Virus record (IMG/VR): IMGVR_UViG_3300033986_000215
Location: 1 to 43,456 of that record
DNA length: 43,456 nucleotides
Strand: one strand, 5' to 3'
Source: a virus
The position numbers and the translations under genes were made by a program. The notes below the pieces were generated by a model, which worked only from the letters and a program-made list of their open reading frames with translations, did not search any database and was not told the DNA's origin. Shown in pieces: positions 1 through 43,456 of the stretch. Numbering within the stretch: position 1 is the first letter of the stretch; every line of letters begins with the position of its first letter.

Positions 1-30
1 GGAAATCCCAACCACCACCAACCTCACCTT

Positions 31-60
31 TTGCCAACCAAAATGTACGGGGGGTATTAT
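31..60 (+). promoter_or_regulatory. Candidate sigma-70 promoter upstream of the solitary repeat
   Basis: TTGCCA at 31-36 and TATTAT at 55-60 are separated by 18 bases, close to a housekeeping promoter. Transcription would run rightward through the hairpin at 138-165 and the CRISPR-repeat-like unit at 174-203. The same elements occur in the right terminal copy (43265-43294). The spacer contains a run of six G. This is a motif match only. Confidence 0.35.
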
Positions 61-137
61 CGGCTTCATCTACCTTGAAAATTTTTTTGGCCGGGGACCG
101 ATAGCTGCTTTGCTTTTGCAAAAACAAATGTTTATCA

Positions 138-174
138 ATGCAATATAATATAGATTATATTGCATGTCGACATG
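138..174. promoter_or_regulatory. 12-bp hairpin followed by a perfect 12-bp palindrome
   Basis: Bases 138-149 and 154-165 are perfect 12-base reverse complements around the 4-base loop ATAG. They overlap CATGTCGACATG (163-174), itself a perfect palindrome whose last base is the first base of the CRISPR-repeat-like unit. The hairpin arms contain TATAAT on both strands. On the minus strand TATAAT (159 to 154) lies 15 bases downstream of TTGAAA, which is inside the repeat. It could be a regulator site, a bidirectional promoter element or an RNA-end-protecting hairpin. Confidence 0.6.
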
Positions 175-203
175 TTTCAATCGAATCTAAGAGGAATGGA
201 AAC
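174..203 (-). CRISPR. Solitary CRISPR-repeat-like unit
   Basis: This 30-base element begins GTTTCAAT and ends ATGGAAAC on the plus strand. Read on the minus strand it begins GTTTCCATTCCTCT and ends ATTGAAAC, the typical 8-nt crRNA 5' handle of type I-B and type III repeats in thermophiles. Against the Thermotoga repeat as I remember it, about 23 of 30 positions agree, including both 8-base ends. No second repeat lies within spacer distance on either side, so this is not an array; the only other copy is the circular duplicate at 43411-43440. Phages are known to carry solitary repeat units that act as RNA anti-CRISPRs, and viral mini-arrays are also known. Which, if either, applies here is inference. 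Confidence 0.65.
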
Positions 204-512
204 CGGACATGCGCACAGGACAGGTATACGCATGCGTACAGTATACAGTTGTGTATCACACACCTTGAGACTGCAAAAGCCGATTGATCCCACAGTTTTT
301 GCACACGAGTGTAGAAAATGAGCATGAACAACGGCTTTTCACTTACTCTGTTAGCCTTATCTAACTCTCTTTATCTTAACCTATTTTCTCCTATATCGTT
401 ACAATATCTGCCAAATATCTTCAAACAATCGCAAAAAAACGGGTGTACGATAGGGATGAAAAGTGAATAAAACTACTCGGCCTGAAAGCCGAGTAATAAG
501 GGGGGAGTAAAA
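204..512. other. Intergenic leader before the early operon
   Basis: No convincing gene is present. The stretch opens with a dyad: GTATAC near 224-229, the perfect 12-bp palindrome TACGCATGCGTA at 227-238, and GTATAC again at 241-246. Composition at 204-310 looks less AT-rich than the genes that follow. A 50-codon open frame at 318-470 has no ribosome binding site. A hairpin closes the region at 474-495. I found no strong promoter here for the early operon. Confidence 0.5.
474..495 (+). promoter_or_regulatory. 8-bp hairpin just upstream of the first early ribosome binding site
   Basis: TACTCGGC at 474-481 pairs perfectly with GCCGAGTA at 488-495 around a 6-base loop. It is followed by AATAAGGGGGGAG, a ribosome binding site, and not by a T run, so it is unlikely to be an intrinsic terminator. 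It may stabilise the 5' end of the early mRNA or control translation. Confidence 0.5.
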
Positions 513-9164: not shown

Positions 9165-9437
9165 TCAAATAAGAACATCGTTTAGAAATTCAATTATGTC
9201 ATGAAACAACATTTCAAGTGCAGGGAGTTGATTCTTGTTTGCTTGTGCTTTGTGTGCTTCATATATTGACTTGAGTTCCTCTATAATATAGTCATATTCT
9301 TCTGCATAAACTTCTTCTTGTTCAGAATAATTGATTTCATCTATTAGTGTGTCTTTAATAAGGTCAAGCTCTGGATCGTCGTATTCCTCAAGGATCTCAA
9401 GTATTTTCTTGGCATCATCCAAAGGTATTACTACCAT
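9165..9437 (-). CDS. Acidic hypothetical protein (90 aa)
   Basis: ATG at 9437 follows GGAGG by about 9 bases; the open frame extends farther upstream without a site. The strongly acidic helical protein (MVVIPLDDAKKILEILEEYD, later EQEEVYAEEYDYIIEELK) has no recognised domain. Its start overlaps the end of the metallopeptidase-like gene by 23 bases, so the two are probably co-translated. Confidence 0.6.
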   Translation of the reverse strand: MVVIPLDDAKKILEILEEYDDPELDLIKDTLIDEINYSEQEEVYAEEYDYIIEELKSIYEAHKAQANKNQLPALEMLFHDIIEFLNDVLI

Positions 9438-40328: not shown

Positions 40329-41117
40329 TTATATCACCTCTGACTTATCCAATTTTCCAAGATATTTTTCTATTGCATGAGTTTTTAACTCGACATCATA
40401 CATTTTTCTTCTATGTGGCATTAGTATATCCCTGTGCTTGGTCAATAATAGATTCATATATGCACGTTTTACTTGCACATTGTTTCTAACTTCCGATCTT
40501 CCTCCTCTTAGAAACTCAGGTGATCCTATAGCTATACTGTTTATTCGAATTACTTTTCCATATTTCTTAAGCACAATACAACTCAGTTCCACATCCTCAT
40601 ATAGCTGGAAAAAGTCATTAAACATCACAGTACCATTGTTGATTAGACCAAAAAATTTGCCATTTATCAGTGATACCTCTGAATAGTTATACATAAGAAA
40701 AAATGGATCTGGAATTGGATACACGCTCCAAAGTATAGTGTTGTGCTGTTTACACAGACTATACCCGAGGTCTATATACCTATCAAGAACCTGCCTGTCG
40801 GTTATTGGAACCATATACTTTTTGCCACCCATCATTTCTAACCTATTGATAGCATAGATATCGTCATCTAAAAAGACCACATATTCTTCCTTTCCTAATA
40901 GATCGCTTAAGATGTTGTTTCTATTCTGTGCTACATTATCTGCTTTCTTATAACATACCGTACACCTATCACTATAGATCTTCTGATACTTTTCATAGTC
41001 TTCTTCATCCTGTGTGTATAGCATTATTTCATCTTTGCCATAGCCTAAATAAGCCAAATAATCTACTGTGAGTATACAATTGGCACGTCTATAACTCGGA
41101 ATACACAATTTCATCAT
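40329..41117 (-). CDS. TAGT-like GT-A glycosyltransferase (DNA base modification candidate)
   Basis: The 262-residue protein has a GT-A-type start MMKLCIPSYRRANCI, NVAQNRNNIL (61-70), a metal-binding DDD in EYVVFLDDDIYAINR (78-92) and a downstream acidic motif YEDVELS (173-179). This arrangement is that of TET-associated glycosyltransferases (TAGT) and their relatives, which attach sugars to hydroxylated DNA bases in phages. ATG at 41117 follows GGAGG by 5 bases. The neighbours are ParB-like and Nmad1-like genes, the usual company. No TET/JBP hydroxylase or hydroxymethylase was found, so the acceptor base is unknown. Confidence 0.72.
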   Translation of the reverse strand: MMKLCIPSYRRANCILTVDYLAYLGYGKDEIMLYTQDEEDYEKYQKIYSDRCTVCYKKADNVAQNRNNILSDLLGKEEYVVFLDDDIYAINRLEMMGGKKYMVPITDRQVLDRYIDLGYSLCKQHNTILWSVYPIPDPFFLMYNYSEVSLINGKFFGLINNGTVMFNDFFQLYEDVELSCIVLKKYGKVIRINSIAIGSPEFLRGGRSEVRNNVQVKRAYMNLLLTKHRDILMPHRRKMYDVELKTHAIEKYLGKLDKSEVI

Positions 41118-41133
41118 ATTCACCTCCATTTAT

Positions 41134-41161: not shown

Positions 41162-41506
41162 CTAAGGTTTAGTAGGAGTATCTGGAAGTGCAAATGGATT
41201 TACTGGCTTAGGCCATTCGCCTTTTAGATACAATAGCCAAATCAGCGCGTAGTTAGCGATATCCTTAAGTGTGTCCTCTATGGACTCATTCTTGGGTTCT
41301 TTGGCTTCAAACAACAGATTTCGAAGCCGCCAAATTTTATCGCACATACGAATATACAGTCCAACATTGCCAAATAGTGCGACATTTCCTGGGCCATAAT
41401 CGTTATGCTTCTTGGCAAATAGCGTTGCACACTCAGAAACTAAATCTACAAATTTTACCACGAGCTCGTCATTGCAAATTTCCAGGCATTTTTCTTTTAG
41501 ATCCAT
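41162..41506 (-). CDS. Nmad1 (DUF1599)-like nucleotide-modification-associated protein
   Basis: The 114-residue helical protein has the family blocks: AKKHNDYGPGNVALFG (31-46), RMCDKIWRLRNLL (53-65) and ESIEDTLKDIANYALIW (74-90). DUF1599 proteins are MazG-related in look and recur next to phage base-modification genes (nucleotide modification associated domain 1); they may hydrolyse or sense modified dNTPs. Its ATG overlaps the stop of the small upstream gene. Confidence 0.8.
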   Translation of the reverse strand: MDLKEKCLEICNDELVVKFVDLVSECATLFAKKHNDYGPGNVALFGNVGLYIRMCDKIWRLRNLLFEAKEPKNESIEDTLKDIANYALIWLLYLKGEWPKPVNPFALPDTPTKP

Positions 41507-41631
41507 AGTTTTAGCCTCCTATTCAGTGCTTTCTGAATTTGGTCTACTCCTCGCACTTCAGTGTGGGGGAGTAGGTCAGTATTAACAAACGGTTCAGCTT
41601 CAACAAATATTGGCTTTTGGACGTACTTCAA
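41497..41631 (-). CDS. Small protein with a KYxxKPxxVEA start (44 aa)
   Basis: TTG at 41631 follows GGAGGTG by 6 bases. The product starts MKYVQKPIFVEAEPFV, which resembles the first strand (K-Y-x-K-P-x-x-V-E-A) common to many small phage proteins, but stops after 44 residues where relatives are about 80-100. It may be a truncated copy or a short version. It overlaps the Nmad1 start by 10 bases and is the first gene of the late arm. A GC-rich dyad (CTACTCC / GGAGTAG) lies within it. Confidence 0.5.
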   Translation of the reverse strand: MKYVQKPIFVEAEPFVNTDLLPHTEVRGVDQIQKALNRRLKLWI

Positions 41632-41686: not shown

Positions 41687-41890
41687 ACAAGCAAGACCTG
41701 TCCTGTCTGTGGACACGTAAGTTCCGATAACAGACCAGACAATGGCGAGCTCTTTGTGTGCCAGAACTGTGGTTACAGCGAACACGCTGACATCGTTGGA
41801 GCAATAAACATAGCTCTAAGAGAACTTATCAAAGACCAAAACATGAATCTTAAGTGGCTGCTTGTCAACCAGCCTAATGCTCCCCGTTAG
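41687..41890 (+). pseudogene. tnpB: C-terminal remnant of IS200/IS605 TnpB
   Basis: The 67-codon fragment reads TSKTCPVCGHVSSDN, then ELFVCQNCGYSEHAD and IVGAINIALREL. These are the four-Cys zinc finger and the last RuvC block (catalytic Asp in HADIVGA) of TnpB, an RNA-guided nuclease of IS605 elements. Everything upstream is missing: no frame before 41687 continues the family, so the element was cut when it entered or later. Codon use and GC are unlike the neighbouring phage genes. Transposon family inference is strong; activity is not expected. Confidence 0.85.
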
Positions 41891-41932: not shown

Positions 41933-41996
41933 ATTGCATATCTTAGCATTCTTCCTTTAAATCTATAATTCCAACCTCCTCCACCAATAAAATTTT

Positions 41997-42192
41997 TGTT
42001 TAGTACATCTATACCACTGTTTAGAACATCTTACATTTTAGCTTTCACGCTCCACATCTGTGTTTGTGTTAATTTTGTATAGATGTTTAAAACACTTGTT
42101 TAGAACATCTATACAAAAAATCGCTAATGCAGAATACAAGCCATTCTCAATATAATGTGAGATGTTCTAAACAAATGTTTAGTACATCTATA
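41997..42192. repeat. Six-copy 17-bp iteron or operator array
   Basis: Consensus TGTTTAGWACATCTATA occurs at 41997-42013 and 42018-42034 (direct), 42078-42094 (inverted), 42097-42113 (direct), 42157-42173 (inverted) and 42176-42192 (direct). Copies 3-4 and 5-6 form two back-to-back palindromes, each with a 2-base centre. Copies 1-2 are head to tail, 21 bases apart (two helical turns). Each site contains the smaller dyad TAGA-ACA-TCTA. Regular geometry indicates a dimeric DNA-binding protein. The array lies between the late genes and the AT-rich tract, so a replication origin or late-promoter operator is likely. Confidence 0.85.
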
Positions 42193-42281
42193 ATTACCAG
42201 CCATATGTGCTTATTTCATTAACGCTCGTTCAAACGCGAATATCCCCGAATATCCCGATTTCAGCCAATTTTACCTATTTT
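42193..42281. other. Short repeats in the control region
   Basis: A perfect tandem 10-mer, CGAATATCCC, occurs twice at 42237-42256. CTCGTTCAA (42225-42233) has its exact inverted copy TTGAACGAG at 42380-42388. No gene is seen. Confidence 0.5.
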
Positions 42282-42599: not shown

Positions 42600-42880
42600 C
42601 AGCTCTTTTTTTCAATTAAAACCGAAAAGATTTTAAAGATTTAAATCTTTTAAATCTTTATTCTCTTTATTATTTATATTTATTATTTATATTTATTATT
42701 TATATTATTTATTATTTAAATCTTTATTCTCTTTATTATTTTTATTATTTATATATTTATTTACTCTATAAACTATATTTATTCTCTTTACTAAGTACTA
42801 TATTATTTATTCTTTTAAATCTTTTAGATCTTTAAATCTTTTAAATCTTTAAATCTTTTAAATCTTTAAATCTTTTCCCA
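42600..42880. repeat. AT-rich tract with many TTAAATCTT repeats (origin-like)
   Basis: Nearly 300 bases of A/T-dominated DNA contain a perfect 16-bp palindrome (42635-42650) and at least eight copies of TTAAATCTT in two clusters (about 42640-42660 and 42813-42875), separated by TATTTATTATTTATA-type runs. Easily melted DNA with repeated short sites next to an iteron array is the classical layout of a replication origin. No gene fits. The plus-strand RepA-like ATPase is the natural partner. Confidence 0.6.
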
Positions 42881-43234
42881 CAATCAACTATAAATTTTAT
42901 TTATAACTACTACTCTTCCCATTAATTATTTTTATATATACACCGTAATTTTTTAATTTTTTACCATATCTGTACCATTTTATTATTTGAAGCAATCTCC
43001 CATAACCTTTCTAATCCTATTATACAAAATGTAAGTCGGGTTCTAAAATGACGAAAAGAGTTAGCTTAATATAACTTATAGCTCTGAACTCAAGTATAGG
43101 AGTGGTGCATCAAAGCATTTGACCTATAACATGTGTCTGAATACCTGCATAAGTATTTTATACTTACCACCGTCTTAAAATTCAACCTTGCCGATTTTAC
43201 GAGCTCTGAGAGGCATCCTTTTTACCACCAAGGG
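42881..43234. other. Intergenic stretch up to the terminal repeat
   Basis: No convincing gene. AT-rich at first, less so from about 43060. AAGTAT (43152-43157) and ATACTT form a short hairpin near 43152-43166. A TTGACC near 43119 lacks a clear -10. A 53-codon minus-strand frame (43358 to 43197) is discussed under rejected items. Confidence 0.4.
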
Positions 43235-43456
43235 GGAAATCCCAACCACCACCAACCTCACCTTTTGCCAACCAAAATGTACGGGGGGTATTATCGGCTT
43301 CATCTACCTTGAAAATTTTTTTGGCCGGGGGGGACCGATAGCTGCTTTGCTTTTGCAAAAACAAATGTTTATCAATGCAATATAATATAGATTATATTGC
43401 ATGTCGACATGTTTCAATCGAATCTAAGAGGAATGGAAACCGGACATGCGCACAGG
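43235..43456. repeat. Right copy of the terminal redundancy
   Basis: Matches 1-219 except for 7 instead of 4 G in the run at about 43327-43333. It repeats the promoter-like sites (43265-43294), hairpin and palindrome (about 43375-43411) and the CRISPR-repeat-like unit (43411-43440). Confidence 0.95.

Follow-up and report, generated by a model that had tools for sequence, protein, structure and literature searches.

A solitary CRISPR repeat of Pseudothermotoga type in a siphovirus-like phage genome, a candidate RNA anti-CRISPR

The window, by which we mean the whole 43,456-nucleotide stretch of DNA analysed here (positions 1 to 43,456 of IMG/VR record IMGVR_UViG_3300033986_000215), comes from a tailed, siphovirus-like phage whose terminase, portal, major head protein, head protease and tape measure are encoded on the minus strand and whose RecT-like early region lies on the plus strand. 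A CRISPR repeat at positions 174-203, which reads GTTTCAATCGAATCTAAGAGGAATGGAAAC on the plus strand and GTTTCCATTCCTCTTAGATTCGATTGAAAC on the minus strand, is located upstream of the early RecT region and is co-directed with it. No open reading frame of at least 60 amino acids overlaps positions 1-755 (the first ones are found from 756 on), and the repeat region is non-coding and intergenic, as the initial annotation of this DNA had held. The features of the locus, and those elsewhere in the window that bear on it, are as follows.

132-161, plus strand: weak promoter-like match TTATCA-18-TATATT, from which the transcription start would fall just upstream of the repeat
138-165: dif/Xer-like palindrome ATGCAATATAA-TATAGA-TTATATTGCAT (11-6-11), 8 nt upstream of the repeat
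138-173, plus strand: 36-nt stretch of spacer length that abuts the repeat and overlaps the match to a spacer of genome G009 at 136-171
169-174, plus strand: left copy of the direct repeat GACATG; the right copy is at 206-211, plus strand, and the CRISPR repeat unit lies between them
174-203, plus strand: lone CRISPR repeat unit that matches the type I-B repeat of Pseudothermotoga at 30/30 positions
3' end of 174-203, plus strand: handle AUGGAAAC of the predicted Cas6 product
204-239, plus strand: pseudo-spacer, which in a Cas6 product would come directly after the handle
41506-41541, plus strand: protospacer of a host spacer from array contig L007 (29/36, 26/27 in the core, PAM CCA)
43235-43456: terminal overlap with window 1-219 (222/219 bp, 98.6%, one 3-nt indel in a G-run)
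43411-43440, plus strand: second assembled copy of the repeat unit, same locus, inside the terminal overlap

Since the two ends of the contig overlap, the second copy at 43411-43440 is the same single repeat locus, and the phage genome, either circular or terminally redundant, has a single repeat locus. The double assembly also bears on whether host array DNA was joined to a phage contig by mis-assembly, an outcome that the initial annotation had named as fatal to its own interpretation. We consider such an artefact extremely improbable. Although contig L007 (see below) resembles just such a chimera of an array and a targeted phage, the phage DNA on either side of the present repeat is single-copy, the assembly recovered the locus at each end of the contig, in copies that differ by an indel, and no spacer or second repeat follows the unit.

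The proposal that the 30-base element is a CRISPR repeat was borne out by 30/30 identity to the repeats of two Pseudothermotoga genomes. When 84,980 species genomes were scanned with a version of the 30-mer that carried three Ns, the only genome among them to match was an uncultured Pseudothermotoga MAG (G001; loci L005 and L006), where five repeats terminate one contig and another contig begins with one more, all 30/30 identical to that of the phage. Genome G010, of the same family as the MAG, has 89 exact copies of the phage repeat in one array. The repeats that were read in other members of the family differ from the phage repeat by 2-3 bases, and the 30/30 match is therefore host-specific. 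It exceeds the identity of at least 27/30 to a Thermotogota repeat that had been proposed in advance as sufficient to name the host, and it assigns this uncultivated phage to Pseudothermotoga. The Thermotoga repeat is about 23/30 identical to the phage 30-mer, in agreement with the earlier estimate; the true host-type match is the complete one. In 20 Markov-1 genomes of the same composition the best matches to the 30-mer were 19-21/30, and the second-best site within the phage genome is 19/30; a chance match is therefore excluded.

The putative host carries the CRISPR-Cas subtype to which this repeat belongs. A complete type I-B operon, cas6-cas4-cas1-cas2-cas8b-cas7-cas5-cas3, is present in the MAG with all of its genes reading toward the array, and a leader of about 450 bp, containing TTGACA-16-TAGAAT placed 18 nt ahead of the repeat, precedes the array start. 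In G010, cas8b-cas7-cas5-cas3 adjoin the array and are 63-74% identical to their MAG counterparts; type I-B genes thus lie beside the array in both genomes. The cognate Cas6 encoded by the host resembles solved Cas6 proteins. Decayed repeats are found in the MAG array at the end opposite the leader, and from these and from the order of leader and cas genes it follows that GTTTCAAT...ATGGAAAC is the crRNA-sense strand. This sense most likely corresponds to the phage plus strand and so points into the early genes, which moves the handle from the minus strand, where it had first been placed, to the plus strand. The 8-nt handle itself, AUGGAAAC, we take from general knowledge of type I-B processing.

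The repeat stands alone in the phage genome, as had been claimed. Apart from the 19/30 site mentioned above, the best other ungapped match within 250 bp of the repeat is 16/30, and the 100-bp flanks of 174-203 contain no partial repeat (gapped flank alignments score 8-10). Solitary repeats have been called by SRUFinder-type criteria that, as set out in PMC10651486, demand identity and coverage of 90% or more relative to a known repeat, a bit score of at least 41.1, an intergenic position, and the absence of any other repeat, whole or partial, from the nearest 100 bp; the phage unit passes on every count, with 100% identity, 100% coverage, 60.0 bits, an intergenic location and clean flanks. A mini-CRISPR array, with at least two repeats around a spacer, is not present at 174-203 because a second repeat is absent, and the suggestion of such an array is dropped. 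Nor does the phage flank resemble a host leader. The leaders of G001, G010 and G009 have TTGACA and a -10-like hexamer that ends 18-21 nt before the repeat, whereas the phage flank does not align to any of the three and is without this arrangement. An Rfam search returned nothing, and a search of IMG/VR with the exact 30-mer and with a looser pattern recovered array contig L007 only and no further phage with such a unit.

These observations also affect the idea that the unit is a guide-producing fragment, in which Cas6 would release an RNA that carries the AUGGAAAC handle and whose guide, 204-239, would be directed at a competitor or at a host gene, a form of superinfection exclusion similar to that of a mini-array. 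Virus-borne mini-arrays with host-type repeats do exist (PMC6858448), but the phage has only one repeat, and its downstream sequence, 204-239 included, is unmatched in 11 family genomes, in viral contigs, and in phage and plasmid collections; we therefore regard a guide function as very improbable. As for expression of the unit, the promoter that had been proposed upstream of it corresponds to a weak match at 132-161, which agrees with the consensus at only 9 of 12 positions; a match of this quality arises here by chance with a frequency of 3.9% in Markov-simulated sequence. No plus-strand terminator was found downstream of the repeat.

The palindrome at 138-165 is built of two 11-bp arms and a central 6 bp. 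Of 103 genomes of the class, 14 carry the phage arms around other 6-bp centres, usually at a single site; among the 14 are 7 of the 11 genomes of the host family, with one site each, and a few other genomes have 2-3. Both the layout and the presence of one copy per chromosome are those of dif/Xer sites, and they suggest that the palindrome is a chromosomal-type dif (Xer) site. Given the 11-6-11 form and the once-per-genome occurrence, dif fits better than a simple operator, which we had also considered. In the phage the centre is TATAGA, unlike those of the chromosomal sites. The GC skew of G010, examined for the position of the dif-like site relative to the replication terminus, was too noisy to place it. 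Phages that exploit Xer/dif recombination are known, as are plasmid resolution sites of this kind; the present phage resembles them in its 11-6-11 palindrome, close to the host chromosomal site, and in that none of its scanned proteins was recognised as an integrase. It may make a similar use of Xer; its centre sets it apart from the chromosomal sites.

The dif-like site and the repeat might together form an attachment region, through which the phage would integrate either via host Xer at dif or into CRISPR arrays. This reading is consistent with the match of the palindrome to a once-per-chromosome Pseudothermotoga site and with the lack of a recognised integrase; in addition, PMC10651486 mentions that viruses integrate into CRISPR arrays by way of repeat-like sequences, and in G009 a serine-recombinase element entered an array at a spacer of this type (below). 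However, no integrated relative of the phage was found, the phage centre is unlike the chromosomal ones, a 30-bp repeat is by itself short for homologous recombination, and a dif-like site would suffice without any repeat. We find an attachment role for the pair doubtful. The recombination dock that the initial annotation had offered as an alternative is made somewhat more plausible by the dif-like site next to the repeat, but the repeat itself is not needed for it.

Two further occurrences of dif-like sites may be recorded here. Viral contig L136 (IMGVR_UViG_3300035661_000134, near 9326) has one with the same arms and the centre GAAATG in a repeat-rich non-coding region; the portion of this contig that was compared shows no tblastx similarity to the window. 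Loci L071 and L072 (G078:C24 and G079:C5) have two or three dif-like sites within about 12 kb of one contig, a pattern expected of elements that integrate by way of Xer.

The dif-like site also occurs as a spacer in a host array. Rebuilt by joining its two flanks, a 36-nt spacer of G009 has as its central 27 nt the phage palindrome; it matches phage positions 136-171 at 30/36, with 27 nt contiguous (blastn, E 6e-11), and its dif-like core immediately precedes a repeat, oriented as in the phage. The spacer is interrupted by a large-serine-recombinase element of about 10.8 kb (L060/L061/L046; G009:C1, about 1135250-1146015), which sits at the centre of the dif-like palindrome with a 3-bp flank overlap (ATA), and we rejected the possibility that the match represents a prophage copy.

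This arrangement in G009 is relevant to the possibility that the phage acquired a spacer-repeat unit from a host array, neutrally or recently, by recombination at a dif-like spacer or at the repeat, and that the repeat has as yet no function. Exact repeat identity is also expected from such a capture if it is recent. The stretch 138-173 that abuts the repeat is exactly one spacer length (36), the G009 spacer supplies the same 27-nt core in the same position and orientation, and the unit is flanked by a 6-bp direct repeat, GACATG, which is possibly a junction scar and possibly chance. Single-repeat relics occur as well: a lone chromosomal repeat in G009 (L062; G009:C1:1686711-1686739), 29/30 identical to the phage unit, occupies the place of the 89-repeat array of G010, with 80.5% identity of the flank over 3 kb. 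We had considered this repeat as a further solitary unit and rejected it, as synteny identifies it as the relic of a lost G010-type array. On the other side, where a palindrome and a repeat already lie side by side, a spacer boundary to within 2 nt of this place is not rare, the phage unit has neither a leader nor a further spacer, and phage non-coding DNA is under pressure toward compactness. We judge functionless capture to be rather unlikely. There is, finally, a slim chance that the dif-like site and the repeat are one composite, captured from a CRISPR array via an Xer-type site stored as a spacer, and that the adjoining repeat then came to act as an RNA anti-CRISPR; if so, an immune memory would have been both a docking site and a source of counter-defence. 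The neighbouring dif-like site and the same-core spacer of G009 make the question of how phages acquire solitary repeats testable.

A second host spacer that matches the phage is found in array contig L007, the repeat of which is 27/30 identical to the phage unit. The CCA PAM of its protospacer at 41506-41541 fits the T. maritima type I-B PAM, YYD (PMC13199841). The G009 and L007 matches indicate that these hosts direct spacers against relatives of this phage, and hence that there is pressure to counter CRISPR. L007 itself (IMGVR_UViG_3300033985_000110) consists of a 24-repeat Pseudothermotoga-type array joined to phage DNA; the phage part is related to the terminase region of the present phage, and two L007 spacers, with PAMs CCA and TTA, are identical to that part. 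It is probably an assembly chimera of an array and its target.

We favour, with moderate confidence, the idea that the solitary repeat acts as an RNA anti-CRISPR, a decoy of Racr type directed against the host type I-B system. The first element of this model, one perfect Pseudothermotoga I-B repeat in the phage, is present in the DNA; the steps that follow are predictions. Early in infection the repeat would be transcribed rightward (plus strand), as the 5' part of an early transcript or as a short RNA, from a promoter that may overlap the palindrome or lie further upstream. Host Cas6 would recognise the repeat RNA and cut before AUGGAAAC, and the products, which would have no proper guide between two repeat ends, would occupy Cas6 and/or Cas5-Cas7-Cas8b and so lower the amount of working Cascade. 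At high phage copy number the decoy would be expected to outcompete genuine pre-crRNA. A transcript that starts near 168, driven by the weak TTATCA-18-TATATT, would be cut into a very short 5' piece and a 3' piece that bears the handle, and one that starts further upstream would give a longer 5' product, similar to RacrIF1. RacrIF1 sequesters Cas6f and Cas7f, and nine Racr candidates that were tested are reported to inhibit their cognate systems (PMC10651486).

As characterised by Camara-Wilpert et al. 2023 (PMC10651486), Racr solitary units are single, host-type, intergenic and phage-borne repeats that are cognate to the subtype of the host and pass bioinformatic cut-offs, and in these respects the present unit is like them; it differs in being cognate to Pseudothermotoga I-B, in having a dif-like site 8 nt upstream, and in that inhibition is here a prediction. 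It is also like the stand-alone repeats of thermophile viruses (2019, PMC6858448) in being a leader-less single host repeat, but it belongs to a siphovirus-like phage of a bacterium and matches its host at 30/30. With the virus-borne mini-CRISPR arrays of PMC6858448 it shares a host-type repeat in a viral genome, and it lacks their second repeat as well as a host-like leader and a spacer to process. Solitary viral repeats, RNA anti-CRISPR function and stand-alone repeats of hyperthermophile viruses are known (PMC10651486, PMC6858448, PMC11656645). The claim that such a repeat in a phage of a thermophile would be new is weakened by the stand-alone repeats already reported in hyperthermophilic archaeal viruses (PMC6858448) and by the approximately 2,100 solitary repeats in viral sequences of PMC10651486, but we found no report for a Thermotogota phage or for type I-B in the portions of the literature considered. 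Of PMC10651486 this covers the main text, which mentions neither; its supplementary list of viral solitary repeats was compiled from an older version of the viral database used here. Type I-B has been described as the most abundant subtype (PMC13199841). If the prediction holds, the unit would be an RNA anti-CRISPR directed at a type I-B system that is thermostable, and the phage, its host lineage and purified T. maritima I-B components offer a setting in which decoy inhibition could be tested.

Relatives of the phage were sought by TerL, RecT and an AAA/HTH protein. Among viral contigs these searches returned only L008, which is the same phage outside the repeat region; Thermotogota genomes gave distant TerL matches and two genomes that share RecT alone, none with the repeat unit. 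No close relative spanning this region was found in which conservation of the repeat could show purifying selection. No known anti-CRISPR neighbour of the repeat was identifiable.

Several other features of the window deserve mention. Near a ParB-like protein, the minus strand encodes a TET-associated glycosyltransferase-like protein (40329-41129) and a DUF1599 nucleotide-modification-associated protein (41162-41506), and it is possible that the phage DNA is modified. At about 41690-41890 the plus strand encodes what, read by eye, appears to be all that is left of a TnpB-type protein, a C-terminal part with zinc finger and RuvC-like portion (CPVCG...CQNCGYSEHADIVGAINIA). Positions 41990-42200 contain several copies and inversions of TGTTTAGAACATCTATA, which are iteron- or operator-like, and an AT-rich stretch with AAATCTTT repeats comes after them, at 42600-42900; the whole is a candidate origin region.
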